NCBI GenBank assembly: GCA_902537945.1
Contig: CACBDG010000001.1
Span: 186,001 to 250,000, forward strand
Direction of reading: 5' to 3'
Source of the DNA: an uncultured SAR116 cluster alpha proteobacterium
Lineage (GTDB): Bacteria; Pseudomonadota; Alphaproteobacteria; Puniceispirillales; Marisalimonadaceae
DNA length: 64,000 nucleotides
Shown piece by piece: positions 2,438-60,839 of this stretch (positions are counted from its first letter, which is position 1; each line of letters starts with the position of its first letter). Made by a program: the position numbers and the translations under genes. The notes beneath the pieces were generated by a model. The model was not told where the DNA came from, searched no databases, and worked only from the letters and a program-made list of their open reading frames with translations.

Positions 2438-3715
2438 TTATTTCTTCATTTCTGTAAGTTTTTTACTTTCTCTTAAAAAGAAAAAACATAAAAATGCTGA
2501 GAAAAAAGGATATAATGCAGAAAGTCTTATAGTTGTAATTAGGTCATAACCAAGATCCATTGATATTGCGAACGGCATTGCGCCAATTGATGCCCCTACA
2601 ACTAATATCATTTGACCTGTGCCTTGAATACTACCAACATGTAGTCTTCCAAAATACCTTGGCCAGATATAGCCAAATAAAGATAAATTAAATCCATTAT
2701 TAATTCCAAAAATGATCGCATAAATCATGGAAAAGGTAGAATCACTTGCAAAGGTTATGGATAATAGTGATGCAGTGGTTATTAATAATGCAACTCCAAT
2801 AATATTATGAGTTTCAAATCTGTCTAAAATTTTGCCTGCAATAGGAATAAAGATAATCATCGAAACCATTGTTGGTATGAATAAAGCAGCTGCAGTGCTA
2901 CTCGCCATTCCAAAGTATTGACTTAAAATTGTAACTTGAAAAAAATGAAGCGCAGTTACTAATGAAGATATAGAAAAAAATGAGAATGCAAGTATGTAGA
3001 AGCTTTTTTCCTTTAGGGCTTCTTCAAGATTGAGACCAAAAATTTTTTCACTATTTTTACTTTTTTTATTATTTTCTAAAATTCCATCTGGTTTAATGCT
3101 TACATCTTCAGGTTTATCTATTGCTAAGAAAATTAATGGTGGTAACATGATTAACCATGTAGATAAACCTAGTATAACCCATGCCATTCTCCATCCGTAA
3201 TTTGAAATTAAAAAGTCAGAGATGTATGGATGTAAACCCATAGAAATAGCAAACCCTAAACCCATTAATCCAAGTGCAAACCCTCTTTTCTTATCAAACC
3301 ACTGAGTTATAATATTCGCAGAACCAAGCATTAGAGAGCCTTGCCCAAAAAATCTTAAAAATCCAAATGCGATGGCCAACATTAGAAAGTTTGATGCAGC
3401 TCCAAAAATCATACATCCAATTCCAAGGAGTAAGACGGTATATATTAAAATTTTTCTTGGTCCGTATTTGTCAACTAATTTTCCCATTTTTGGCAATAGA
3501 AAAGCAGCAAATAAAGTTGCTATCATATAAGCAGTAGTAATTGATGTACTGGAAATTTTAAGATCTTGAGATATTACTGGTATAAAAGGACTAAAGGTAT
3601 GAGATTGTCCTGCTCCACTCGTAAAAATACCAAGACTTCCGATTCCAACAATTACCCAGCCGTAGAAGAATTTTTCTTTTGTAGCTTCAAAAAATTTTTT
3701 GTTAACAAGAAACAT
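2438..3715 (-). CDS. MFS transporter, monocarboxylate/oxalate-formate antiporter-like
   Basis: 425 residues with 12 predicted helices and a long cytoplasmic loop near residues 205-230. The loop-2/3 motif GKLVDKYGPRKILI is the classic MFS signature G-x3-D-x2-GRK. The opening FYGWVIVGIGSLGIF is typical of the oxalate/formate antiporter and monocarboxylate-transporter-like group, so an organic acid substrate is likely (family inference). It heads a minus-strand pair with the EamA carrier 6 bases downstream and is separated from the DUF1932 dehydrogenase by 49 bases. Confidence 0.87.
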   Translation of the reverse strand: MFLVNKKFFEATKEKFFYGWVIVGIGSLGIFTSGAGQSHTFSPFIPVISQDLKISSTSITTAYMIATLFAAFLLPKMGKLVDKYGPRKILIYTVLLLGIGCMIFGAASNFLMLAIAFGFLRFFGQGSLMLGSANIITQWFDKKRGFALGLMGLGFAISMGLHPYISDFLISNYGWRMAWVILGLSTWLIMLPPLIFLAIDKPEDVSIKPDGILENNKKSKNSEKIFGLNLEEALKEKSFYILAFSFFSISSLVTALHFFQVTILSQYFGMASSTAAALFIPTMVSMIIFIPIAGKILDRFETHNIIGVALLITTASLLSITFASDSTFSMIYAIIFGINNGFNLSLFGYIWPRYFGRLHVGSIQGTGQMILVVGASIGAMPFAISMDLGYDLITTIRLSALYPFFSAFLCFFFLRESKKLTEMKK

Positions 3716-3764
3716 GTTAATGATTTACTTCATTTGTTAACTAATTTACAAGTGTTTTTATATT

Positions 3765-4646
3765 TTATTTTTTAATTGCATTTACGTACATATCAAGTAC
3801 ATCATTCAAAGATCTTGTTTCATCGACTGTTTCTCTAGTCTCTCTAGCAATTGGTGTTTTATTTGCCAGTGACATTATATCGGCAGCACCTTCGTGAAAT
3901 TTTGAGGTAACTCCAGCATCAGAAAAAGTATTTGCAATTTCAAACATTTCTCCTTCCCATCTTGCTGCGTCAAGAGGAATTCTTGGAACCATTCTTTCCA
4001 TTGCTGATAATATATCAGGTTTGCTATATTCCAATTCAGCAAAATATTCAGAAGTAAGACCTAGTTTATGAGCAGTTGTCAAAACTGCTGCATGAAGTGC
4101 AAAAGTTCCTTTTGTTGCGCTAGCATAAACCATTTTCATTGCAGAAGCTTTACCTATTTCTAAACCTAAATCTTTTATTATAAATCCTTTTTTGTGGAGT
4201 AATTTAACTGGTTGAGTATTAGGTCCAGATATATACAACCTTGTTTGTCCATTTTCTACAATTGGATTGAACCCAATGATACCACCATCTATAAAATTAC
4301 AAAACTTAGAGGATATTGAATCATTGATTTTTAATGCTGTTTCAGGAGATACAGCATTGCAATCAACATAAGTAATGTGTTTTTCTTTTTTTAAAATTAC
4401 ATCGTTGACTATTTTAGCTTGTTGAAGAGCAAATTCAGGAGGCAGTATTGATAATATAATATCAGAATTTTCAACAACATTTTCAATTGTACCTAAATCT
4501 TCAAAACCCGATAATTCAGCCAGTTTTTTTGTTCTAATACTTCTCTGATTTAAACAAGTTACAACTCTAAAATTATTATTTTTAAATGCTTTTCCGCATC
4601 CATGGCCCATATCTCCAGGCATTAATATTGCAATTGTTTTTGACAT
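3765..4646 (-). CDS. NAD-binding dehydrogenase with DUF1932 domain
   Basis: 293 residues. The N-terminal Rossmann part begins AILMPGDMGHGCGKAF, a G-x2-G-x3-G dinucleotide fold related to 6-phosphogluconate and 3-hydroxyisobutyrate dehydrogenases. Residues around 190-260 form the all-helical DUF1932 domain, including a KMVYASATKGTFALHAA helix that carries the conserved catalytic-type Lys. The family is usually annotated as putative phosphogluconate dehydrogenase, but true substrates are mostly unknown. It sits in a minus-strand run after a rhodanese gene (20-base gap) and before two transporters, perhaps a small uptake/catabolic operon. Confidence 0.8.
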   Translation of the reverse strand: MSKTIAILMPGDMGHGCGKAFKNNNFRVVTCLNQRSIRTKKLAELSGFEDLGTIENVVENSDIILSILPPEFALQQAKIVNDVILKKEKHITYVDCNAVSPETALKINDSISSKFCNFIDGGIIGFNPIVENGQTRLYISGPNTQPVKLLHKKGFIIKDLGLEIGKASAMKMVYASATKGTFALHAAVLTTAHKLGLTSEYFAELEYSKPDILSAMERMVPRIPLDAARWEGEMFEIANTFSDAGVTSKFHEGAADIMSLANKTPIARETRETVDETRSLNDVLDMYVNAIKK

Positions 4647-4666
4647 AAAATTTTAAAATAAATGTT

Positions 4667-5044
4667 TTAGTACTTTTTCATTGGGCCACCATTTTTTTCC
4701 CAATCTGGAATACCTCCTACATTAAGTACATTTTTATACCCCATTTCTATAAGTGTCTTACCAGTTAACGCAGCTTGGCCGCCAACTCCACAGATAAGTA
4801 TTATTTCCGCATCTTTTTTAAGGTTATTATTGTAGAGTGGAGTTGCCTCATCAGCGACAAACTCAATTAGGCCTCTTGGAATTTCTAGACCATCTAAAAT
4901 CGTTCCTGTTTTTTTAATATCAGAACTATCTCGTACATCTATAAAAATTGCTGATTTTGATTTATGCTTTTCAATTGCTTCCTTTACGTCAATTTTTTTC
5001 ACAACTTCGTTAGCTTCTTGAAGGTAATCTTTTGCTGTTTTCAT
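4667..5044 (-). CDS. rhodanese-like domain protein
   Basis: A single rhodanese domain of 125 residues. IFIDVRDSSD is the CH2A-type motif, and the active-site loop ICGVGGQAAL puts the candidate sulfur-carrying Cys at about residue 85. The tail NVGGIPDWEKNGGP is typical of single-domain rhodaneses. Members move sulfane sulfur or act as phosphatase-like folds; the acceptor is unknown. I chose ATG at 5044 because a GGAG sits 6 bases upstream; a GTG at 5056 would add MEKN and leave that site inside the gene. The Sox genes at the other end of the window make sulfur handling relevant, but no direct link is shown. Confidence 0.82.
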   Translation of the reverse strand: MKTAKDYLQEANEVVKKIDVKEAIEKHKSKSAIFIDVRDSSDIKKTGTILDGLEIPRGLIEFVADEATPLYNNNLKKDAEIILICGVGGQAALTGKTLIEMGYKNVLNVGGIPDWEKNGGPMKKY

Positions 5045-5062
5045 ATTTTTCTCCACTTTATT

Positions 5063-5527
5063 TTAGTTCAACTGCCCTATGAATTGTGGTTGTGTAACCG
5101 CAGTCGTCATCCAACAATTTTTGCAATCTTTACTTACAGATGCTTTTTCTAAAAGCCATGTTAAATTGTAGCGTTTATTATCGTATGCGTCTACATTAAC
5201 TGAATACGCAGCTTTGTTTTTATTTTCTTCTATTAATTTAATTTTGAATTTAGTTGAATTTAACAATATTTTGTAAGAAGTATCAGAAATCATTTTTTTG
5301 AAATTACCAAATGGTCCTGTATATCTCTTATTTTCTGGATGTGCAAACAGCCAACATTGGTAAATGCCAGAATTATTTTTAATTGAGTTTGTCTGAAGGG
5401 AGCTCATTTGAAGTTCAACAACTTCCACTGACGAAAATAAATCATTTGGCAAAACGTCGCTAATAGCTTTATTTATGTTGATTAAAATAAAAATAAAAAT
5501 AAAAGAAAATATAAAAAATAATCGCAT
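5063..5527 (-). CDS. secreted DUF4864-like protein
   Basis: 154 residues with a clear Sec signal peptide (hydrophobic residues 3-20, likely cleavage after the AIS-type site near 22). The mature part opens DVLPNDLFSSVEVVELQMSSLQ and contains an AHPENKRYTGPFGNFKKMI block, which resembles the DUF4864 family of small alphaproteobacterial periplasmic proteins; the C-terminal TWLLEKA and Cys-x2-Cys (KDCKNCW) also fit. Function is unknown. It lies just upstream of the rhodanese gene on the same strand (18 bases to its ATG), so the two are probably one transcript. Confidence 0.65.
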   Translation of the reverse strand: MRLFFIFSFIFIFILININKAISDVLPNDLFSSVEVVELQMSSLQTNSIKNNSGIYQCWLFAHPENKRYTGPFGNFKKMISDTSYKILLNSTKFKIKLIEENKNKAAYSVNVDAYDNKRYNLTWLLEKASVSKDCKNCWMTTAVTQPQFIGQLN

Positions 5528-6127: not shown

Positions 6128-6949
6128 ATGAAACAATTTGATGAATTATCTCTCTTAGAAATTGTTGATGAAGTTAAAGATGGAGATTTAATTGGAATTC
6201 CAGCAGACTATTCTGGAGTTCCAATGGAGTTCACAAAAGAGCTAATAAAAAAGGGTGTAAAGGACTTAAAATTATATTGCCTTCCATTGACAACTATTCA
6301 AGGTGATATGTTAATAGGTAGCGGTTGCGTTTCTGAAGTTGAAGCAGCGGCTGTAACTTTAGGTGAATTTGGTTTAGCACCTAGATTTTCAGAAGCTGTA
6401 GAGTCAGGTAAAATAATTATAAAAGATTCCACATGTCCAGCATTACATGCTCAACTTCAAGCTACTGAAAAATCAGTTCCATTTATGCCATTAAGAGGAG
6501 TTATTGGTTCTGACATACAAAAATATAGAAAAGACTGGCAAGTAATTGAAAATCCGATGAAATTTTCAGGTAACAAGAATGAACCAATCTTGTTACTTCC
6601 TGCGGTCCAATTAGATATATTAATATTTCATGCACCTTGTGTGGATAAAAATGGAAATATTCAAATTGGAAGGAGACGGGAATTAGCAACTCTTGCACAC
6701 GCCTCAAAAAATGTATTTGTTACAACTGAAAAAATTCTAGATATTGATTTCTTTGATGACGAATTATCTGCGGCGACTTGCTTGCCGGCATTATATGTTG
6801 ATGGAATATCGGTTGTTGAAAATGGAGCGTGGCCATGCGCTTTACCTGGAGTTTATGGTCCAGATAATGATGAAATCAAAAAGTACTCTATTGCTGCAAA
6901 GACAAAAAAAGGCTTTGATGATTATATGAAAAATTACTTATCTAATTGA
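6128..6949 (+). CDS. CoA-transferase family alpha subunit (IpdA-like)
   Basis: 273 residues, the usual length for an alpha subunit of class I CoA-transferases or IpdA-type hydrolases. It shows an N-terminal IGIPADYSGVPMEF segment in place of the glycine-rich GxGG loop, then FMPLRGVIGSDI, which resembles the corresponding IpdA block. A strong ribosome-binding site AAGGGAG lies 12 bases before ATG. The beta subunit follows after 17 bases. An ENG tripeptide occurs near the C-terminus, but on the wrong subunit and position for the catalytic glutamate. Substrate unknown; a ring or carboxylate CoA-thioester is plausible. Confidence 0.75.
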   Translation: MKQFDELSLLEIVDEVKDGDLIGIPADYSGVPMEFTKELIKKGVKDLKLYCLPLTTIQGDMLIGSGCVSEVEAAAVTLGEFGLAPRFSEAVESGKIIIKDSTCPALHAQLQATEKSVPFMPLRGVIGSDIQKYRKDWQVIENPMKFSGNKNEPILLLPAVQLDILIFHAPCVDKNGNIQIGRRRELATLAHASKNVFVTTEKILDIDFFDDELSAATCLPALYVDGISVVENGAWPCALPGVYGPDNDEIKKYSIAAKTKKGFDDYMKNYLSN

Positions 6950-6966
6950 CTTAAAGGTTAAATTTT

Positions 6967-7704
6967 TTGGTTGAACTTAAGAGAGAAGAGTTATTAATTA
7001 GTCAATTAGCAGATTTGCTTGTTAATGATAAACATATAGCTGTAGGTGCAGCGTCCCCAATTCCTGGTGCAGCATCTCTGTTAGTAAAAGAAGAAGCTAA
7101 ACTTCTAAATAATAGAATAAGAGTTACAATATTACATTCAAATAAATATAATAATTTCACTGATGGCGCTAGAGAACTTTTTGATTGCGCTGCTCAAGGC
7201 AGAATAGATACTTTCTTTCTAGGAGGTGTTCAAATTGATGGTGCGGCTAATATAAATTTAGTAGGCACTGGAAGTTATGAAAAAATACAAAAAAGATTTC
7301 CAGGTTCATTTGGATCTGCTTTGATGTATTTTGTAGTTCCACAAATTATTTTATTTAGAGAAGAACACTCACCAAGAACTTTAGTTGATAAAGTAGACTT
7401 TATTTCTGCTCCTGGATTTTCTGATGAAAATATCTACAGACCTGGGGGACCAAAATTTCTATTAACGAATAGAGCTCTATTCAAATTTAACAAACAAAAG
7501 AAACGTTTTTGTCTTTTAAAAATTCATAATAATGAAAGTATAGAAAATATAATTAAACTTACAGGATTCAAATTTGACGTTGATGATAAAATAACGAATA
7601 TGTCTATTCCAGATAAAACTCGTATAGATATATTAAGAAATAAGATTTCTTATATGGTCTCAGAGTTTTATCCAGAGTTTGCCGACAGAATTTGGGGTGT
7701 TTAA
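6967..7704 (+). CDS. CoA-transferase family beta subunit (IpdB-like), no catalytic Glu seen
   Basis: 245 residues. Starts at a TTG (no later start fits), with AAAGG about 11 bases upstream. The segment AVGAASPIPGAASLL matches the N-terminal phosphate-loop region of IpdB-like beta subunits, and DTFFLGGVQIDGAANINLVG is the conserved core GxxQID..GN.N block. In true class I CoA-transferases a (S/E)ENG motif supplies the catalytic glutamate; here the equivalent stretch reads RVTILHSNKYNNF and has no Glu. That is also the situation in IpdAB, the actinobacterial hydrolase of steroid ring CoA-thioesters, so this pair may be a hydrolase. Confidence 0.75.
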   Translation: MVELKREELLISQLADLLVNDKHIAVGAASPIPGAASLLVKEEAKLLNNRIRVTILHSNKYNNFTDGARELFDCAAQGRIDTFFLGGVQIDGAANINLVGTGSYEKIQKRFPGSFGSALMYFVVPQIILFREEHSPRTLVDKVDFISAPGFSDENIYRPGGPKFLLTNRALFKFNKQKKRFCLLKIHNNESIENIIKLTGFKFDVDDKITNMSIPDKTRIDILRNKISYMVSEFYPEFADRIWGV

Positions 7705-7710
7705 CTCATA

Positions 7711-8391
7711 ATGAGAAGACCTGCATTATTACTATTTATTTTAATTATTACTTTTCTACTATCTTACATATATCTTCAAGAAATTTTCAATTTAGATAAA
7801 TTAAAGGAACATATTACCTTTTTGAAAACATGGGTTAATGAAGAAGTTTATATATCAAGAATTTCATTTTTTACTTTATATGTAATATTTTCAGGTTTGT
7901 CTTTCCCATTTGTTCCTTCAATTTTGACCATTGCCGCTGGAGCCTTGTTTGGAGTTATTGAAGGTGTAATTATAGTTTCATTTGCCTCTACGATTGGGGC
8001 ATGTATTTGTTTTTTATTATCGAGATATCTTTTAAAAGATTTCATTAATAATAAATTTGAAAAAACGAAAATTATTATAGACAATAAATTTAGCAAAAAT
8101 GGTATTTATTATCTTCTAAGTCTTAGATTAATACCTACTATTTCTTTTGTATTAATAAATTTAATTATGGGAATATTACCTATTTCGCTTTTTAGGTTTT
8201 ACTATATAAGTCAATTAGGAATGCTTCCTGCAACAGTAATTTATGTAAATGCTGGCTCAGAAATCTCGAAAGTTAATAGCGTTAATGACATTATGTCGTT
8301 TACACTAATAGTAAGTTTTATATTAGTAGCTACTCTTCCAATTTTGATAAAGTTTTTAATAAATTATTTCATCAAGCTAAATAATACTTAA
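7711..8391 (+). CDS. TVP38/TMEM64-family (VTT) membrane protein
   Basis: 226 residues with about six predicted membrane segments. The [18 protein letters not shown] segment followed by [19 protein letters not shown] is the typical VTT/SNARE-associated domain pattern (re-entrant loops with G-x-R-x-P-type residues). Family members are DedA-like and are linked to membrane lipid flipping or envelope homeostasis. It starts 6 bases after the beta-subunit stop and is likely co-transcribed with that pair. The 3' end overlaps convergent acs by 4 bases. A second, only distantly similar VTT-type protein is encoded at 54500-55099. Confidence 0.83.
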
Positions 8392-10328
8392 GTGTTTTTT
8401 CTGTTTTGCACTAAATTTTGAACAACTTGTGGATCAGCCAGTGTCGATACGTCACCTAACTCTTCATGTTCATTTGCAGCTATTTTCCTTAATATTCGTC
8501 TCATTATTTTACCTGACCTTGTTTTAGGAAGACCTGGCGCAAATTGAATTAAATCTGGTGTAGCAATGGGACCTATATCTTTTCTTACCCATTGTTTTAA
8601 TTCTGTCAATAATTCTTCTGATGTTTTTACGCCAATATTCACAGTAACGTAGGCATAAATGCCTTGCCCCTTAATTTCATGCGGGTAACCAACAACTGCT
8701 GCTTCAGCTACATCTGTGTGAGCTACGAGAGCAGACTCTACTTCTGCTGTACCCATCCTGTGACCAGATACATTTATTACATCATCAACTCTTCCTGTTA
8801 TCCAATAATATCCGTCTTCATCTCTTCTACATCCATCACCAGAAAAGTATCTTCCGGGAAAAGTTGAAAAATATGTATCTATAAAACGTTGGTGGTCACC
8901 AAAAACTGTCCTCATTTGACCTGGCCAAGACATATTAATACATAGATTTCCTTCAGTGGCTCCAGTTAATTCTTTGTTCTCACTGTCAACAATGACTGGC
9001 AATATTCCAAAAAAAGGTTTTGTGGCAGAACCTGGTTTTGTATCAGTGGCTCCTGGTAAAGGAGTGATTAATATCCCTCCAGTTTCAGTTTGCCACCAAG
9101 TATCCACTACTGGACACCTTCCATCACCAACAACATTGTTATACCAATTCCATGCTTCTGGATTAATTGGTTCTCCAACACTACCTAAAATTCTTAGGCT
9201 GTCTCGTTTTGTTTTTTTTACTGGTTCACTGCCTTCAGCCATCAATGCTCTTATTGCTGTAGGAGCAGTATAGAATATATTAACTTTATGTTTATCCACT
9301 ATTTCCCAGAATCTACTTACAGTAGGGTAGTTTGGTACACCCTCAAACATTAATGTAGTAGCGCCATTTGATAATGGTCCATAGACTATATAAGAATGTC
9401 CTGTTACCCAGCCTACATCTGCAGTACACCAATAAATTTCATTTTCTTGATAATCAAAAACATAATGATGCGTCATAGAAGCATAAACCATATATCCTCC
9501 AGTTGTATGAAGAACTCCTTTAGGTTTACCTGTCGATCCTGAGGTATATAATATAAACATTGGATCTTCGGCATTTATTTCAGCGGGTGGACAATTAGCT
9601 GATGCCTTTTCCATTTCTTCATGATACCAAATATCTTGGCCGTCTATCCAATTAATTTCAGCTCCTGTTCTTTTAACTACAATTGTAGTTTTGCACATTT
9701 TAGCTTTTGATATAGCCTCATCAGTATTAGATTTTAAAGGTATCGTTTTTCCACCTCTTATACCCTCATCCGCAGTAATAATTATTGTTGAATTACAATC
9801 CTCAATTCTTCCAGCTAAAGCGTCTGGAGAAAAACCACCAAAGACAACTGAATGAATAGCTCCTATTCTAGTACATGCTAACATTGCAACTGTTGCTTCT
9901 GGGATCATTGGCATGTAGATTGTTATTCGATCACCTTTTTTTGCACCAGCATTTAATAATACATTAGAAAATTTACATACCTGTTCATGAAGTTCATTAT
10001 AGCTAATATGTTTGGAGTCATTTGGGTCGTCACCTTCCCAAATAATTGCTGTATTATTACCTTTGGTTGCTAGATGTCTGTCTAAACAATTATAACTAGC
10101 GTTTAGTGTTCCATCCTCATACCATCTGATATGAAGATCTTCTTTATTGTAGGACACATCCCTAATTTTTGTGTATGGCTTCATCCAGTCAATTCTTTTA
10201 CCATGTTTTTCCCAAAATTTTTCAGGAGAAGAAATAGATTCTTCATACATTTTTTCATATTCTGCTTTATTTACATGAGAATTTTTAATTATATCAGATG
10301 ATGGTACATACAAATCTTTATTAGTCAT
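8388..10328 (-). CDS. acs: acetyl-CoA synthetase
   Basis: 646 residues, full length for AMP-forming acetyl-CoA synthetase. Present are the N-terminal ACS extension, P-loop-like [11 protein letters not shown] near residue 265, the WWQTETGG substrate block, SGHRMGTAE in the C-terminal lid, and [11 protein letters not shown] with the conserved adenylation/acetylation Lys at about 607. It activates acetate with ATP and CoA, feeding the TCA cycle. It is distinct from the propionate-type synthetase at 25873 in having the acetate-type GVLHTTGGY stretch. It lies 18 bases after recX on the same strand and may share its transcript. Confidence 0.96.
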
Positions 10329-11834: not shown

Positions 11835-12983
11835 ATGAATAAAATTCAAAAAATTGCAGGTGTTTTATCAAGCCAAGAAATTTTAGAATTGATCAATAAA
11901 AATGTAATTACTAGTGAAAATGGTATTGAAAAAGATCTAATCCAACCAGCCTCTATTGATTTAAGATTGGGTATAAAAGCGTGGAGAGTGCCAGCCTCCT
12001 TTCTTCCAGGTAAGGGAAATAAAGTATCTAGTAGATTAAAAGACCTTGCAATGCACGAATTTAGCCTAATAGATGGTGCTGTTTTAGAGTGTGGATGTGT
12101 GTATATCGTCAAGTTGTTAGAGGAAGTAAGTTTAACTGATAATTTAACTGGAATTGCAAATCCCAAAAGTTCTACTGGAAGACTAGACGTTTTCACCAGG
12201 TTAATTGTAGATGGTGCAATGGAATTTGAAGAAGTTCCAGCTGGATATCAGGGACCTTTGTATGCAGAAATATCTCCTAGGACATTTTCTGTTTTGGTAA
12301 GAACTGGTTCCCGACTTAATCAATTAAGATTAAGAAGAGGACAGTCATTTACTTCAGATAAAGAAATGGAAATATTGCAAGAACATGTTGGATTGGTTAG
12401 AAATCAAGATAATATCAATCTCCTTGATAAAATAAAAAATGGTGTTCCTTTATCCGTAGATTTAGTTGGTGAAAATGGTCTAATTGGCTACAAGGCGAGA
12501 AAACATTCTATGCTGATTGATATAGATAAAATAAACCATTATAAACGTGAATTGTTTTGGGAAAAAATAACTGTAGAAGATCTTTTGTACCAAAGTGGTG
12601 ATTATCATAATAAAAAGAATGAAGGAAGTTTGATACTTAGTCCTGATGCATTTTACATATTAGCTAGTAAAGAATACGTTTCTGTTCCATCAAAGTATGC
12701 TGCAGAGATGAGAGCTTATGATACCAAAGTTGGCGAGTTTAGAGCTCATTATGCTGGTTTTTTTGACCCTGGATTTGGTTTGACAGAACTTGGTGCTTCT
12801 AAAACCAAAGCAGTATTGGAGGTAAGATCTCATGATGTACCTTTTTTAATAGAACAAGACCAGACAGTGTGTAGACTTGTTTATGAACCAATGGCAAATG
12901 TACCAAGTGTTTTATATGGTGAGGCTGGAAGTTCAAATAATTATCAAGCGCAAGGTCTTAAATTAGCTAAGCATTTTATTTAA
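11835..12983 (+). CDS. dcd: 2'-deoxycytidine 5'-triphosphate deaminase, two-domain form
   Basis: 382 residues, about twice the length of ordinary dCTP deaminase, matching the DCD_C-type alphaproteobacterial family in which two dUTPase-like folds are fused. The first half holds PASIDLRLG near residue 40, NPKSSTGRLDVFTRL near 110 and a GYQGPLYAE strand; the second half repeats the fold from about residue 190 with SPDAFYILASKEYV and HYAGFFDPGFG. It makes dUTP for dTMP synthesis. It follows the ABC-2 permease by 24 bases. Confidence 0.92.
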   Translation: MNKIQKIAGVLSSQEILELINKNVITSENGIEKDLIQPASIDLRLGIKAWRVPASFLPGKGNKVSSRLKDLAMHEFSLIDGAVLECGCVYIVKLLEEVSLTDNLTGIANPKSSTGRLDVFTRLIVDGAMEFEEVPAGYQGPLYAEISPRTFSVLVRTGSRLNQLRLRRGQSFTSDKEMEILQEHVGLVRNQDNINLLDKIKNGVPLSVDLVGENGLIGYKARKHSMLIDIDKINHYKRELFWEKITVEDLLYQSGDYHNKKNEGSLILSPDAFYILASKEYVSVPSKYAAEMRAYDTKVGEFRAHYAGFFDPGFGLTELGASKTKAVLEVRSHDVPFLIEQDQTVCRLVYEPMANVPSVLYGEAGSSNNYQAQGLKLAKHFI

Positions 12984-54499: not shown

Positions 54500-55099
54500 T
54501 TAAAAAATATAAATCGAAATCATGATAATTGCTATTCCTAAAATGCTAGAAGATAAAAGAAGATGTTTCTGAAAAAATTGTAGAGCAGGCATGCCAAAAA
54601 ATTTTGTTACATATGCAACTATGAAAAACCTTATACCCCTACCAACAAGAGACATTAATATAAAGCCAATTATGTTTATTCCAGCCATGCCACTTGTAAT
54701 AGTTATGATTTTGAATGGTAGTGGGGTAAATGCTCCTAAAAAAATTATAAGCATACCATTTTCATTATAAGCTAATTTTACTGCATTAAATTTTTCTTCA
54801 GTAAACCAAGGTATATTCAATAGTATATTCTCAATTGAGGGTCCTACAAAATATCCAAGAAACCATCCAATAACTCCCCCAATTACAGAACCAACTGTAC
54901 AAAATAATGCAAATTTAAATACTTTTTTTGGGGCAGCTAACGTCAATCCAGCAAGCAATGGGTCAACTGGTATAGGAAAAATTATTGATTCTATCAAAGA
55001 AATAAATCCAATAATTTTTTGTGCTACAGGTTTCGTAGCATTATGCTTTGCTTTTTCAATTAAACGATTAATCTTAGTTTTTACATTTAAGAATTTCAT
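54500..55099 (-). CDS. YqaA/DedA-like (SNARE-associated/VTT) membrane protein
   Basis: 199 residues with about five helices. ESIIFPIPVDPLLAGLTLAAP and TPLPFKIITITSGMAGINIIGF are the paired re-entrant P-x-P motifs of YqaA-like DedA-family proteins. Such proteins support envelope integrity or lipid flipping. First gene of a minus-strand operon with dsbB and coq7. Its start is 90 bases from the tRNA-Leu gene, which is divergent. Confidence 0.85.
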   Translation of the reverse strand: MKFLNVKTKINRLIEKAKHNATKPVAQKIIGFISLIESIIFPIPVDPLLAGLTLAAPKKVFKFALFCTVGSVIGGVIGWFLGYFVGPSIENILLNIPWFTEEKFNAVKLAYNENGMLIIFLGAFTPLPFKIITITSGMAGINIIGFILMSLVGRGIRFFIVAYVTKFFGMPALQFFQKHLLLSSSILGIAIIMISIYIF

Positions 55100-55189: not shown

Positions 55190-55274
55190 GGGGATATGGT
55201 GAAATAGGTAAACACGCTGGTCTCAAAAACCAGTGCCGCAAGGCTTCCCGGTTCGATTCCGGGTATCCCTACCA
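55190..55274 (+). tRNA. tRNA-Leu (CAA)
   Basis: 85 bases including encoded CCA. The acceptor is GGGGATA paired with TATCCCT (first pair G-U), the anticodon stem is CTGGT/ACCAG with loop CTCAAAA giving anticodon CAA, a long variable arm follows (GTGCCGCAAGGC), and the T arm is CCCGGTTCGATTCCGGG. The long class-II variable arm and anticodon identify leucine. Its 3' 51 bases are repeated imperfectly at 59613-59663 and mark an island boundary. Confidence 0.95.
55224..55274 (+). repeat. island left repeat (tRNA-Leu 3' part)
   Basis: This 51-base stretch, from the anticodon loop through CCA, is the intact tRNA copy of a direct repeat whose partner is at 59613-59663. The two agree at 48 of 51 positions (by hand). 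Integrases of many islands use exactly this part of tRNA genes as an attachment core. Confidence 0.8.
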
Positions 55275-55349
55275 AACTTCACAAATTTATGTAGGTAAGG
55301 ATTTTAGAAGATTATTCGTGATTTCGAATTCAACCAACATTCTTAAAAT

Positions 55350-56723
55350 TTAACTTTTAGAAAACGCTAACTCTTCTGATCGCGCTCGGTGCCATAGCGC
55401 AGCGGCTGCAGTTTCTGCAGCTTCTAGAACAGCCGATTTGTCCACTCGCAGTGGCTCTCCACCAGAAACAACTACTTCCCCTTCCACAATGACTGTATCT
55501 ACGTCTCGACCCTGTCCTGTGTGTACAAGTGTTCCCAATACGTTTGTAAGCGGTCTCAAATGTGGGCGCCTAAAGTCAAACATTACTAAATCAGCGCGTT
55601 TACCAACTGTTAAAGAACCAACCTCGTCTTCCAGACCAAGCGCCCGCGCACCTCCAATTGTAGCAGCCTCAAATACATTGGCAGGTTGCCAATCGTTAGT
55701 AATTTTACCATCTTGTAAACGACCCGAAGCTAAAGCCCATCTCATCAATTCCACCATATCAGCATGCATGTTGTCGGTTGAAAGTGTCAAATTCATACCC
55801 GCGCGACGCAGAGCACTGGTCGGCGCCACATGACCGTGTGTTTGATTGCCCTTAGCTATATGAGCCAGATGTGCGCCTGCGCGTCCAAGACGCTCTATAT
55901 CTGTTTTCGAGACGTGTATACAATGCGCACCAATTAAACGATCATCTAGAAGTCCGACATCTTCCAATAATTCAGGTGGACTCATCTTGTCACGTTCTCG
56001 AATGAAGTCAACCTCAACTTGACTTTGTGAAACATGAGTATTGATCCGCAACCCTTTGTCATCGCGCATATTACGTACTTGTCGCAATAGATCTGGCGAA
56101 CAAGTGTCTGGCGCGTGAGGTGCTAGGACCACCCCAGTGCGTAGACTAATTGGATCGTGGTTTTCTTCAATCAGCTCCGAGGCTTCCCTGAGAGTCTGCT
56201 CTCCTATTTCTGTGTTATAGGTCCACTCACCGAGATGTACGCGTGTAAAATCAACATCGTGGATTCTTCCACAGCCCCATGCTCTGATCCCCGTTTCAGC
56301 CATCGCTGGAAGTGCAATATTCTGGTGTGTAAAGCTATCGTTTATTATCGTTGATCCGAAGAGGAGTGCTTCTAAACCGCCCAGCTGAGCCATAGCATAT
56401 GCTTCTTCTGGGTTTGGATCATGTCCATGAGGCACACCAATGGTATAAGCCGGCGCAAACCCCATGTCTTCTGCCACTCCGCGAACCATACTAAGGATAG
56501 CATGGGTGTGGACGTTAACGAACCCAGGTGTAATGACAAACCCCTTCGCATCAATTACTTTTGTTGCCGGGTTAATCCTGTCCGGCTTTTCGTCTTGAAT
56601 TGACTGTATTCGGCCGTTATCGATAACTACCCAACCTTCTTGGACGTAAGGTTTACTGGGATCTGAGGTAAGCAGAGTGCCACCTGCTACGATCATATCT
56701 GGTATTGCAAGAGCCTCACTCAT
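55350..56723 (-). CDS. metal-dependent amidohydrolase/deaminase (TRZ/ATZ-like)
   Basis: 457 residues, the length of the TRZ/ATZ/MTA-deaminase branch. TIM-barrel metal ligands: NVHTHAI (His72, His74), a His in INTHVSQS, a His in IGAHCIHV and an Asp in LSTDNMHAD. The usual E after the third His (HxxE) is replaced: HVSQSQVEV. That changes the substrate pocket, so guanine/cytosine/MTA specificity cannot be assumed; atrazine-, hydantoin- or guanidine-like compounds are possible. The C-terminal [18 protein letters not shown] is a family hallmark. It overlaps the ABC ATPase gene by 8 bases and clearly shares the island's higher G+C. Confidence 0.85.
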
Positions 56724-57462
56724 GGGTTAAATGCCTAAGAAACCGCTGTGCACCAGGCGATTTTGGTTTTCTGAACAGAATTTCTGGTGGACCCTCCTCA
56801 GCAATCCTTCCATTCTCCATATAAATTACGCGGTCTGCAACTTCACGCGCGAAATTCATTTCATGGGTAACTACTACCATAGTCATACCTCCGTTTGCTA
56901 ATTCTTTCATTACATCTAGTACCTCTTGAACCAATTCAGGATCCAGAGCCGAAGTTGGTTCATCAAACAGCATAACTCTAGGCTTCATTGCTAGTGCTCG
57001 TGCTATTGCTACTCTTTGCTGTTGCCCGCCAGATAGTTGTACTGGACGCTTCATTGCGTGATCAGACATATGAACCCGTTTAAGTTCAGCTCCAGCGAGA
57101 GCTCTTGCATCCGACTTAGACATCCCACGAACCTTTTCAGGCCCGATAGCTACATTATCGAGGGCAGAAAAATGCGGAAATAGATTGAACCTTTGGAAAA
57201 CAAAGCCAAATTGACTGCGTTGGTCTGCGATTTGTTTTTCAGAACCACTATTCACCACTGGGTTTCCATCTAACCGTACAATACCAGCGCTAGGCTCTTC
57301 CAACCTATTCAGGCAGCGTAGAAAGGTGGTCTTACCTGAACCAGAGGCTCCAATTATTACAACAGTTTCACCAGTAGCTACATCCATAGATACACTACGT
57401 AACACAGAATTATCCCCAAAGCTTTTGTTAAGGTCTTGCACCTGGATTACCGGAGTTACCAT
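56716..57462 (-). CDS. polar-amino-acid-type ABC transporter ATP-binding protein
   Basis: 248 residues, GlnQ/HisP-like. Walker [10 protein letters not shown] at 38-46, Q-loop [18 protein letters not shown], signature [15 protein letters not shown], Walker [16 protein letters not shown] and H-loop [12 protein letters not shown]. The EEP..GIV..DG segment and FxRFNLFPH are typical of amino-acid importers. It overlaps the permease by 7 bases and the amidohydrolase by 8, so the three are translated in one transcript. Confidence 0.95.
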
Positions 57463-58109
57463 GTTGGAAGCCTCTGTTCAAGTCGACCCGACAACCAGCT
57501 TAATACTTTAATAAGAACATAATAATACAGCGCCAGCAGAGTATAAATCTCAAATGGCACAAAGTGCACTGAGATTATCGCCTGACCTGCTCTTGTTAGT
57601 TCATAAACTGATATTACTGAGAGCAAAGATGAATTTTTTACTAAGCTTATTAGCTCGTTTGTAAGTGGCGGAACCATTTGTCTATAAGCTTGTGGAAGTA
57701 AAATATATACAAGGATTTGTCTATGTCGCATGCCTACGGCAGTGGCTGCTTCGGATTGGCCCCGCTCAATAGACCCAACGCCACCACGCACAACTTCTGC
57801 TACGAATGCTGCAGAGTTCAAAGAAAGTGCAACTACACCGGCCCAAAATTCATCAAATCGAATACCAAGCGCAGGGAGTGCAAAAAAAACTAGAAAAATT
57901 TGAATCAGCAACGGTGTACCGCGTATAAAATCAACATAACCTGCAACAATCCAACGAAGGGGCCTGCTATGCGACAGTGAGCACAAACCTAAAGCTACAC
58001 CGAGCGCCAAACCTAAGACAGATGCTAGCGCTGAGACTTGCAACGTTACCACTACACCATGACCAAGGAGTGGCATGCTTTTTAATATAATGCCCCAATC
58101 AATAGTCAT
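57456..58109 (-). CDS. polar-amino-acid-type ABC transporter permease
   Basis: 217 residues with five to six helices, HisM/GlnP size. The EAA loop is [17 protein letters not shown], followed by [21 protein letters not shown], the ATPase-docking region of the family. [16 protein letters not shown] near residue 65 is typical. A single permease gene implies a homodimer. Upstream in the transcript is the binding-protein gene, separated by a stable hairpin. Confidence 0.94.
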
Positions 58110-58125
58110 ATAAACACCTTTTCAA

Positions 58126-58156
58126 CCTTGTCCCCTAAGCTATTAAAGGGACAAGG
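58126..58156 (-). promoter_or_regulatory. stem-loop between binding-protein and permease genes
   Basis: A perfect 9-bp inverted repeat: CCTTGTCCC (58126-58134) and GGGACAAGG (58148-58156) around a 13-base loop, within the 63-base gap between the binding protein and permease. On the transcribed (minus) strand it is not followed by a T-run, so it is more like an mRNA-stabilising or attenuating hairpin than a terminator. Such elements commonly keep binding-protein mRNA in excess over the permease in ABC operons. Confidence 0.7.
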
Positions 58157-58172
58157 TAAGTTAAACTAGTAA

Positions 58173-59027
58173 TCACGCAAACGACGGAATTGTGTCGGAC
58201 AGTTCCATTTTGAACCCAAACCACTTTTCTTGCAACTCGTAAATCTCTCCGCTATCTTTCAGCCTTGTCAGTTCAGCATCCATCCAATTGACAATTTCTG
58301 TATCTTCTTTACGCGCCGCTATCCCTGCCCAATTCAACTTTCCGACTGGGCGTACCAATGCGTATGCACCTGGACGGTCCTTCATCACTTTTCCTAATGT
58401 TGGCAGAGTGTTAAGCACACCATCAACTGTTCCTTGACTGAGCGCAAGGTAAGCAGAAGGATGATCATCATAAATTTTTACGTCAGAAAATCCAGTTCCT
58501 TTGGCGGCTACGATTTCTTTTTCAAGAGCTGGCTTCATCATTTCACCAGGTGATCCAAGTTTAACTCCAAGTACTTTCCCAGAAAGATCCTTCACTGACA
58601 TAATTTTTGATGCATCATCTGCTCGAATAAGCATAGCTTGGCTTGCTTCAGCATACGGAATAGAAAAAGCAACTTTTTCTAAACGCTCTTTACGGTAACT
58701 CATAGACGACATAATCACATCGAACCTTCCAGCGTAGAGCGCTGGAATTACACCTGACCATTGCGTGTCAATAAATTCTGGCTTAACTCCCAATGAAGAA
58801 CACATCAAAGCTGCTAAGTCCACATCATAGCCCACTATCTTACCTGCGTCCCGAAAAGTAAAAGGCGGATACGTTGCTTCACATCCTATTTGCAATACTC
58901 CCGACGCTTTCACATCAGACAAAGTTTTACTCCCTGCTCGAGCTAAACTAGGTGTCAACATTGATACTGCCAAACCCGAGGCAGCAGTTACTAAAACTTG
59001 ACGACGTGTAAATTTAGTTGTTTTCAT
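58173..59027 (-). CDS. periplasmic amino-acid-type binding protein (Tat-like signal)
   Basis: About 284 residues from the ATG at 59027, which has AGGAG 11 bases upstream; an in-frame ATG 75 bases earlier gives an implausible N-terminus. The signal peptide KFTRRQVLVTAASGLAVSML carries twin arginines, so export may be by Tat. The mature protein has SBP family 3 motifs: GCEATYPPFTFRDAGKIVGYDVDLA, LGVKLGSPGE and WTDAELT-type end (here NWMDAELTRLKDSGEI). It is the capture component for the ABC system. First gene of the island operon. Confidence 0.93.
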   Translation of the reverse strand: MKTTKFTRRQVLVTAASGLAVSMLTPSLARAGSKTLSDVKASGVLQIGCEATYPPFTFRDAGKIVGYDVDLAALMCSSLGVKPEFIDTQWSGVIPALYAGRFDVIMSSMSYRKERLEKVAFSIPYAEASQAMLIRADDASKIMSVKDLSGKVLGVKLGSPGEMMKPALEKEIVAAKGTGFSDVKIYDDHPSAYLALSQGTVDGVLNTLPTLGKVMKDRPGAYALVRPVGKLNWAGIAARKEDTEIVNWMDAELTRLKDSGEIYELQEKWFGFKMELSDTIPSFA

Positions 59028-59102
59028 ATTACTACATACTCCTATATTTGCTTTTTCATTAAATAATTGTCGGAAGGTATTGTTTTGAGTTATATAGTAC
59101 AA

Positions 59103-59583
59103 TTTTTATCCGGCTTTTTTGTACTGAAAACACGGGGTGCTAAAAAATTAAGCTAAATCAGCAATCATTTTAATCAATGTTTAATAAAACAGCATAAATC
59201 GAATTTACTTATATATCGAAAATACAAACTCAATTTAAGCATTTTAGTACAATCACTTTACAACTTGAATCTCAAAACTTATTGGATATTTGAAATCCTC
59301 TTAATGTTAAATCTAGTTGTGTCATTCGTATATTGACACCTATTTATCAACAAAATGACGTGACAGTCCAATGTGAATAAAGCAATTAAATAGAAAATTT
59401 AAAGTAATTATCAATATCGCTAAAGCTATAATGATGAGTGCCGTCAAGTTATTCTCCATAACTGTTTAATAAGTGTGACGATAAATGATACAAAAATCAA
59501 ATAAACTGGCTTGACTGTGTTTACAATACAGAATAACAATTGACCTATAATTGTGGGAATACCTAGAATTACTTGACTATATT
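59103..59583. other. non-coding AT-rich end of island
   Basis: About 480 bases after the binding-protein gene's promoter region with no ORF of gene size in any frame. I find no integrase remnant that can be recognised. A weak TATAAT at 59546-59551 on the plus strand stands upstream of the tRNA-like remnant, but the spacing to any -35 is poor. The upstream part should contain the promoter of the minus-strand island operon; no single site stands out. Confidence 0.5.
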
Positions 59584-59612
59584 GGTTATACATAAGTTGT
59601 AATCAGGTAACC

Positions 59613-59663
59613 CAAAAACCAGTGCCGAAAGGCTTCCCGGTTTGATTCTGGGTATCCCTACCA
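59613..59663 (+). repeat. island right repeat / tRNA-Leu remnant
   Basis: A 51-base copy of the 3' part of tRNA-Leu(CAA), from the anticodon loop through CCA, with three mismatches to 55224-55274 (48/51). The substitutions fall in the variable arm and T stem. Preceding bases 59584-59612 weakly resemble the 5' half of the tRNA with about 10 bases deleted, so this may be a tRNA pseudogene rather than a bare attachment site. It cannot fold into a functional tRNA because the 5' anticodon stem is missing. Confidence 0.78.
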
Positions 59664-59697: not shown

Positions 59698-60162
59698 ATG
59701 GAACTTAATGATGAGGTCAAAATACCAGCAAAATTAGAATACGTTTACAATTGTTTGAACGATCTTGAAGTTTTACAAAAATGTATTCCAGGATGCGAAG
59801 AATTATTAGAAGATACAGATGGTTCTTTGTCAGCTAGGGTAGTTTTAAAAATTGGACCAATAAAAGCAAATTTTAAAGGGAAAATTGTGTTAGATTTATC
59901 AAATGGCCCTGAAAAGTATTCGCTAAATGGTGAAGGGGATGGTGGCATGGCAGGTTTTGCAAAAGGAGGTGCTGATGTCGAACTAATTGCAGATGGTAAT
60001 GAGACAATTTTAAAATACGTTGCTAAGAGTTCTGTAACAGGTAAGATTGCTCAACTTGGAAGTCGCTTAATTTTAAACACAGCTAAAAAATTATCTAAAA
60101 CTTTTTTTGAAAATTTCAGAGAATATATCCACAATGAAAAAAATGAAAATGTTCAAGTATAA
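59698..60162 (+). CDS. CoxG-like SRPBCC protein, copy 1
   Basis: 154 residues with the CoxG/carbon-monoxide-dehydrogenase-subunit-G domain: IPAKLEYVYNCLNDLEVLQ, CIPGCEEL, LKIGPIKANFKGKI, a GEGDGGMAGFAKGGADVEL loop and KIAQLGSRLI helix. Such proteins are START-like hydrophobic-ligand folds that recruit CO dehydrogenase to the membrane; many distant homologues have unknown roles. It lacks the C-terminal membrane helix found in some CoxG proteins. Its ATG is 35 bases after the tRNA-like repeat. It is paralogous to the next gene (about 109 of 150 residues identical by hand). Confidence 0.82.
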   Translation: MELNDEVKIPAKLEYVYNCLNDLEVLQKCIPGCEELLEDTDGSLSARVVLKIGPIKANFKGKIVLDLSNGPEKYSLNGEGDGGMAGFAKGGADVELIADGNETILKYVAKSSVTGKIAQLGSRLILNTAKKLSKTFFENFREYIHNEKNENVQV

Positions 60163-60386: not shown

Positions 60387-60839
60387 ATGGAATTGAATGA
60401 CGAAATAAGAATCCCTGCAAAATTAGATTTTGTTTATAAATCTTTAAATGACTTACATATATTGCAGACTTGTATTCCTGGGTGCGAAGAATTAATAGAA
60501 GGTCAAGATGGCACATTGAGTGCTAAAGTTATTTTAAAAATTGGCCCTATAAAAGCTGGCTTTAAAGGTAAAATAAACTTAGATCTTTCAAAAGGTCCTT
60601 CAAGATACTCGCTAACTGGTCAAGGTGATGGAGGTGTGGCAGGCTCAGCTTCTGGCGGTGCTGATGTTGAGTTGATAGAAGATGGTAATGAAACAATTTT
60701 GAAATATGTCGCTACAAGTAATGTTAAAGGAAAAATTGCTCAATTGGGTAGTAGATTGGTTTTGAGCACTGCTAAAAAGCTTTCAAGAGCATTTTTTGAA
60801 AATTTTAAGAATTATGTTACAGAAGAACAAAAAAATTAG
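60387..60839 (+). CDS. CoxG-like SRPBCC protein, copy 2
   Basis: 150 residues, a tandem paralogue of the preceding gene: the same start MELNDE, CIPGCEEL, ILKIGPIKAGFKGKI and KIAQLGSRLV. Most differences are conservative, and both keep the glycine-rich GADVEL loop, so both are likely functional. The ribosome-binding site AAGAGAAG precedes the ATG. The 224-base spacer between copies is AT-rich and probably contains a separate promoter. No CO dehydrogenase large subunit is nearby. Confidence 0.82.
   Translation: MELNDEIRIPAKLDFVYKSLNDLHILQTCIPGCEELIEGQDGTLSAKVILKIGPIKAGFKGKINLDLSKGPSRYSLTGQGDGGVAGSASGGADVELIEDGNETILKYVATSNVKGKIAQLGSRLVLSTAKKLSRAFFENFKNYVTEEQKN

Follow-up and report, generated by a model that had tools for sequence, protein, structure and literature searches.

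Positions 186,001 to 250,000 of contig CACBDG010000001.1 (GenBank assembly GCA_902537945.1), a stretch of 64,000 nucleotides (nt) from an uncultured SAR116 cluster alphaproteobacterium (hereafter the window), carry a four-gene element inserted at a tRNA-Leu(CAA) gene. On comparison with related genomes, the element is read as a cargo-only cassette that was likely moved in trans by the tyrosine recombinase of other elements using the same tRNA (probability about 0.7). A displaced copy of the tRNA 3' part, empty sites in relatives, end sequences (arms) shared between elements of different cargo, stacking of elements in varying order and relationships independent of those of the hosts can all be read directly from the sequences, while action in trans is suggested because the ends are shared with integrase-bearing elements. 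The tRNA-Leu gene is a docking site common to related SAR116 genomes, and the window element is a single cassette of a larger shared set, which is beyond what the window alone could reveal.

Target tRNA and extent of the inserted block

The tRNA-Leu(CAA) gene (Table 1) was the single tRNA called by ARAGORN across the whole window, and a direct repeat of its 3' part was located at 59613-59663 (identity 48/51), as the original prediction had described. The repeat tool itself reported an 86-nt repeat of 81% identity, of which 59613-59663 is the tRNA part; the 86-nt extension was left unused. Counted from tRNA position 33, where the anticodon loop starts, the displaced copy spans 53 nt; random AT-rich 53-mers matched the tRNA part at no more than 33/53 positions in 300 trials. 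With up to 3 mismatches allowed, the two tRNA-Leu copies were the only ones in the host assembly (75% complete). The element proper runs from about 55222, in the anticodon loop, to about 59610, a block of 4.3 kilobases, and the tRNA stretch from 55222 to the 3' end would be the element-derived half, since the repeats in other genomes start at tRNA position 33. The window element thus has the hallmark of a tRNA-targeted island, being bracketed by an intact tRNA and a directly repeated, displaced 3' fragment of it. An island-internal integrase, a further criterion of such islands, was missing from the window element, where a tblastn search with the tRNA-Leu integrase described below gave no match at E 0.01, in agreement with the original prediction.

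Distribution, empty sites and stacked cassettes

The four-gene element was present in 10 of the 37 genus genomes searched, the window genome included (amidohydrolase match of at least 95%); these 37 are a subset of 61 relatives searched, and many of the assemblies are incomplete. A tRNA-Leu copy was detected in 28 of 40 genus genomes, and these loci were mapped. At empty sites in four relatives (G014, G019, G063 and G031; loci L034, L053, L057 and L038) the tRNA was followed directly by coxG, and the contiguity of yqaA, tRNA and coxG there supported the layout of site-specific integration that had been proposed. Locus L045 (G028) was rejected as a further empty site, its tRNA copy being distal and preceded by a right arm.

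All ten copies of the four-gene element sit behind a tRNA-Leu copy, either alone (the window, G002, G012, G023, G025 and G022) or behind other cassettes: in G021, G017 and G003 several elements lie between tRNA copies and it occupies the outermost place, and in G006, where the contig ends inside it, it also followed other elements. Other cargo at tRNA-Leu included hydantoinase A/B, in some cases accompanied by a Bmp binding protein and a 2-oxoglutarate (2OG) oxygenase; an amidase together with a branched-chain-type ABC transporter; a polysaccharide lyase; and tetratricopeptide repeat (TPR)-methyltransferase proteins. These cargo types recurred in differing orders, partnerships and array positions among relatives. 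Presence, order and empty sites at the tRNA matched the gain and loss pattern of an additive flexible genomic island, and site-directed recombination is the inferred process behind cassette gain and loss. Among the 25 elements bounded by tRNA copies, of which 8 were the four-gene element, one had a full integrase (G024), five had C-terminal remnants, one had a marginal match (E 0.006) and 18 had none. In G007, a 1,806-residue open frame lies directly behind the tRNA (L037:1110-6530), with a relative in the G024 array and no arm match on its left side.

Arms shared between elements of different cargo

Irrespective of cargo, the ends of the elements could be aligned, the right ends over about 140 nt and the left ones over 70-110 nt, and the element junctions consisted of tRNA 3' copies with arms. 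The first arm models were built from 17 right and 14 left rows, with the window element and the amidase element with the branched-chain-type transporter excluded. Two diverged left rows (c19) were omitted by hand from the left-arm model, and for 2 of the 17 right rows the cargo lay off the contig, the right model being repeated without them (15 rows). Both arms of the window element were recovered by these models, and also by profiles built solely from four integrase or remnant elements (Table 1), among which the G017 right arm was paired with its integrase by inference across a contig gap. The reversed window scored at most 5.1 bits with the arm models.

A right arm preceded the distal tRNA copy in 24 of the 25 bounded elements (the exception being the Bmp/2OG element of G006), and a left arm followed the proximal copy in 24 of 25 (exception G067); many of these arms also trained the models, the window element being the independent test. 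A tRNA-Leu copy followed 31 of 33 right-arm matches (32 distinct places, as L200 and L204 overlap), the exceptions being a decayed copy and a weak match in L046. The decayed case, at L199:2311-2451 in G033, consists of a right arm and a tRNA copy reduced to 36/53 identical positions, apparently the relic of an old cassette. Arms were detected in 18 of the 28 genomes with a tRNA copy; no arm was found in the other 10, apart from a weak 46-nt partial match in L046. Across the order, the right arm was present in 22 of 136 genomes, belonging to 3 of 20 genera, all in one family.

The arms contain a repeat, GGTACGAAAA, near offsets -135 and -123 (right arm) and +86, +97 and, in some elements, +109 (left arm). 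Allowing one mismatch, the remaining 54 kb of window examined held no GGTACGAAAA on the plus strand and 3 on the minus strand. Lambda-type arm sites have a similar layout. The right arm of the window element retains one repeat site with 2 mismatches (GATACAAAAA at 59487-59496), and the sites found further in (+86 and +97) in other elements are missing from its left arm. In G025, which has a longer left arm, the identity after the core (0.848) was out of register, and the element identity (0.949) was used instead.

Divergence relative to the hosts and transfer between genera

Synonymous divergence (pS) of the element was 0.083-0.169 across all 45 carrier pairs, compared to 0.060-0.716 for the flanking yqaA gene (36 pairs with data), and the element was closer than yqaA in 35 of 36 pairs. 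For G022 against the other carriers, pS was 0.643-0.716 for yqaA (8 pairs) and 0.51-0.72 for a second flank gene (five pairs with data), relative to 0.106-0.134 for the element (9 pairs). Carriage by all close relatives with a matching phylogeny, which the original prediction had named as contrary to acquisition, was not what was observed, as only the ten genomes carry the genes and neither divergence nor trees were host-like.

The strongest evidence of mobility came from another integrase-free cassette, with the Bmp, 2OG oxygenase and hydantoinase genes, which was common to G021 and G070, of different genera, over 6,889 nt at 98.06% identity. The match spans from the anticodon loop to 2 nt beyond the distal tRNA copy, and the 300-nt flanks are different sequences (identity 0.40 and 0.30). 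In G070 the cassette adjoins that genome's own yqaA, dsbB and coq7 (48%, 44% and 64% identical to those of the window, respectively), which argues against contamination.

A candidate integrase and the elements that carry it

The tRNA-Leu integrase (370 aa) has Phage_integrase and SAM-like domains and distantly resembles the Int protein of entry 6en0. Across 16 aligned sequences, R207, H317, R320 and H343 were invariant and Y353 nearly so. Seven full-length relatives (74-98%) were found. Within the genus, a full integrase was present in 2 of 40 genomes, G017 and G024, in both at tRNA-Leu; the G017 integrase element is cut by a contig end, and this genome also has the four-gene element. The integrase elements have their predicted att arms in common with the cassettes. 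With the integron-integrase model TIGR02249 the tRNA-Leu integrase scored 26.5 (cut-off 265) and is accordingly not classed as IntI.

The G024 integrase element further encodes a 64-residue HTH_17 protein with weak excisionase similarity (Xis-like), an HTH_36 protein, an AAA_25 protein with weak primase-helicase matches and McrBC-like genes. The gene set of phage satellites (integrase, regulator or Xis, replication genes) is present in the integrase elements, with weak matches for the replication families; conjugation families gave no match among the genes tested, which were part of the genes of these elements. An element with an integrase remnant in G026 encodes a DpdF-like helicase (654 bits). 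At L039, two defence-like genes, for a DpdF-like helicase and an MkoC-like helicase with a nuclease domain (3584-5275 and 6208-9519), lie in an element with an integrase remnant.

The search of the host genome for a tyrosine recombinase, proposed in the original prediction, gave six Phage_integrase matches, all outside the window element; a close relative of the tRNA-Leu integrase was not among them. An integrase of the host genome was rejected as the driver, the tRNA-Leu integrase having one weak match there (E 1.6e-4). Of the six matches, two have a tRNA with a displaced copy close by (tRNA-Arg in one case, tRNA-Val in the other), and a third is near a tRNA-Ser without one. The first marks a second tRNA-bounded island (L209, contig C7), with tRNA-Arg(ACG) at 5447-5523 and a 62-nt copy (97%) at 12545-12606. 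At L208 (contig C3), tRNA-Val(GAC) occupies 7105-7179 on the minus strand, with a 53-nt copy (91%) at 808-860; at L211 (tRNA-Ser) no displaced copy was seen within the stretch.

Carriage by a virus or plasmid was also rejected, as searches of viral contigs, phage and plasmid records gave no close relative. Viral contigs encoded no relative of the amidohydrolase or the integrase in a search sensitive to close relatives only, and two exact arm patterns had no match in them. Integrase relatives in phage records were all below 60% identity (the best among the matches listed, about 28%, being from streptococcal satellites), as were amidohydrolase relatives in plasmid records.

Cargo genes and chromosomal neighbours

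The four genes would provide for uptake and hydrolysis of a nitrogen-containing solute, as predicted from their families (Table 1). None of the 25 NCBIfam models listed for the amidohydrolase scored over its cut-off, and the best NCBIfam match of the ABC ATPase was GlnQ-like and under cut-off. For the solute-binding protein, the start giving 58173-59027 was used in the NCBIfam comparison. The higher G+C of the genes noted in the original prediction stood up to calculation per gene: G+C was 0.43-0.48 in the four genes relative to 0.317 ± 0.030 in 11 neighbouring genes, GC3 (G+C at third codon positions) was 0.33-0.38 relative to 0.206 ± 0.019, and the difference in G+C was also visible in a sliding-window calculation. 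The whole operon was found in the same gene order at 76-86% identity in 3 (L067, L076 and L068) of 4 Rhodobacteraceae loci examined, the binding-protein gene of L076 being cut by a contig end and L069 having the amidohydrolase alone. The donor was likely Rhodobacteraceae-like (roseobacter-like).

To the right of the element, two coxG genes stand in tandem (59698-60162 and 60387-60839; proteins 74% identical). Several relatives have CO-dehydrogenase-like genes (for FAD, iron-sulphur and molybdopterin subunits) between tRNA and coxG; these are missing in the window.

Table 1. The tRNA-Leu(CAA) element and its surroundings in the window
Feature	Position	Strand	Evidence
Left chromosomal flank gene, VTT-domain protein (yqaA-like)	54500..55099	-	VTT_dom E 1.4e-12; same neighbour in relatives
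Intact tRNA-Leu(CAA), integration target	55190..55274	+	ARAGORN
Left arm, predicted attP arm	55275..55345	+	Profile without window element E 9.5e-12; four-element profile E 1.6e-7
Amidohydrolase, TRZ/ATZ kind, 457 aa	55350..56723	-	Amidohydro_1 E 2.9e-49
ABC transporter ATPase, polar amino acid type, 248 aa	56716..57462	-	ABC_tran E 3.9e-35
ABC transporter permease, 217 aa	57456..58109	-	BPD_transp_1 E 1.1e-23; HEQRo_perm_3TM over its cut-off
Periplasmic solute-binding protein, 284 aa	58173..59027	-	SBP_bac_3 E 6.9e-40 on longer frame 58173-59102
Right arm, predicted attP arm	59470..59609	+	Profile without window element E 8.1e-32; four-element profile E 6.2e-30
Displaced 3' part of tRNA-Leu	59611..59663	+	49/53 identical to tRNA positions 33-85
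Right chromosomal flank gene coxG	59698..60162	+	COXG E 2.6e-26

Alternative explanations

The original prediction had allowed either that the element lost its integrase or that it was moved in trans. Of these, movement without an integrase of its own is favoured by the data, because all ten known copies were integrase-free wherever seen and share matching ends with the integrase-bearing elements that use this tRNA. A dead island, in which an ordinary island arrived with an integrase, had that gene deleted and is now fixed, spreading among species only by homologous recombination across shared flanks, is unlikely: the C-terminal remnants in five of 25 elements do show that integrase erosion is real, and both the absence of left-arm sites from most copies and the close right flank common to G000 and G017 would fit such a history, but it does not account for an element in G022 that is far closer to the other copies than either flank is, for a hydantoinase cassette that crossed genera with similarity ending at the tRNA copies, or for the same cargo at different array positions. 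It is less likely still that the element travels only in cis, in a composite with a neighbouring integrase element that supplies the left end while the four-gene element supplies its own right end (accretion, as for cis-mobilizable elements, CIMEs). Arrays fronted by an integrase or remnant element do exist (G017, inferred across a contig gap, G024 and G006), and the four-gene element has kept its right arms better than its left ones; however, it is solitary behind the tRNA in six of the carriers, and the hydantoinase cassette moved alone between G021 and G070. Vertical inheritance, with the four genes ancestral at the site and lost in relatives without them, has one site for all ten copies in its favour and is very improbable given an element divergence independent of the host (the comparison of G022 with the other carriers already contradicts this reading), the raised G+C and GC3, empty sites without a scar, and arms common to other cargo.

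Several observations weigh against movement in trans. In the pair G023-G003 yqaA was closer than the element, and in G000-G017 the right flank (pS 0.095) was closer than the element (0.132); these exceptions indicate that homologous exchange of flanks also happens. A left-arm GGTACGAAAA site, with 2 mismatches tolerated, was seen in G025 alone; the other nine four-gene copies, among them that of the most divergent host, lack it, which means either that left sites are dispensable or that those copies travelled otherwise. G022 has neither a right arm nor a distal tRNA copy, and of the ten carriers one has a full integrase (G017) and one a truncated one (G006), in assemblies that are incomplete. 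Clustering of the element on the yqaA tree (597 nt), also listed among these points, neither helps nor hurts: presence of the element required four changes on this short tree, and 143 of 500 shuffles required four or fewer.

Proposed mechanism and relation to known systems

In the mechanism proposed for trans-mobilised cassettes, recombination inside the anticodon loop between both tRNA copies would excise a circle carrying right arm, core, tRNA 3' half and left arm, which together would form attP. In a new cell, the tRNA-Leu integrase, supplied by an integrase element with the Xis-like gene, would insert the cassette at the intact tRNA. The 3' half of the cassette would restore the tRNA, and older cassettes would shift outward, where their arms may decay.

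The class as such is already known. Like the Dehalococcoides ssrA islands, as described in PMC3146451, the cassettes form a tandem series behind a single RNA gene whose 3' end is repeated, in direct orientation, at the end of every unit, and they carry nutrient cargo (respiration in Dehalococcoides); 16 of those islands have an integration module and 15 do not, the latter being suggested there as possible cis-mobilizable elements. The Dehalococcoides system uses ssrA and a serine recombinase, in contrast to tRNA-Leu and a tyrosine recombinase here, where in addition long arms are common to cassettes with and without integrase. The window element has the trait of a CIME, as named in the same source, in that attL and attR are kept and integrase and transfer genes are absent; it differs in that the genes tested revealed no conjugative or mobilizable helper, the candidate helper looking satellite-like, and in that cassettes seem able to move alone. 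Additive flexible genomic islands of Methylophilaceae (PMC10872708), Actinomarinales (PMC7771536) and Alteromonas (PMC5217437) likewise have cassettes at tRNA genes with tRNA-end repeats, content varying among close relatives, streamlined planktonic hosts and transport cargo; the portions of these accounts drawn on here describe neither common cassette arms nor a matching integrase. Prochlorococcus tycheposons, as described in PMC10872708, are similarly tRNA-bounded elements of plankton with nutrient cargo (4-200 kb), the autonomous form having a tyrosine recombinase, a type of enzyme absent from the window element and present in the G024 and G017 elements. Finally, integron cassettes and clusters of attC sites lacking integron integrases (CALINs), as outlined in PMC11389934, resemble the present arrays as cargo units whose recombinase is supplied from elsewhere; here, a tRNA target and attP-like arms are found instead of an IntI platform, and the units are operon-sized. 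Beyond that class, the present data contribute a candidate integrase, conserved arms and the exact transfer between genera of a unit that lacks an integrase. None of the literature matches listed (titles and abstract starts, mainly outside subscription journals) described tRNA-Leu cassettes in SAR116.

With somewhat less assurance than for the window element itself, we lean towards an integron-like exchange in SAR116 at one tRNA-Leu, in which a single integrase family on rare, defence-bearing, satellite-like elements would mobilise common integrase-free cassettes of operon size (several for uptake and amide or ring hydrolysis) with standard arms, and would move them between species and genera as precise units. 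That additive tRNA islands cause gene content to vary in marine bacteria is established, but the cassettes there were, as far as the cited descriptions go, not tied to an enzyme. Now that a candidate integrase and common cassette ends can be named, the passage of nutrient genes between uncultured, streamlined ocean bacteria becomes testable, and the 140-nt arm provides a search key for cassettes of any cargo. The exact transfer of an integrase-free unit between genera means that such cassettes are not merely relics.

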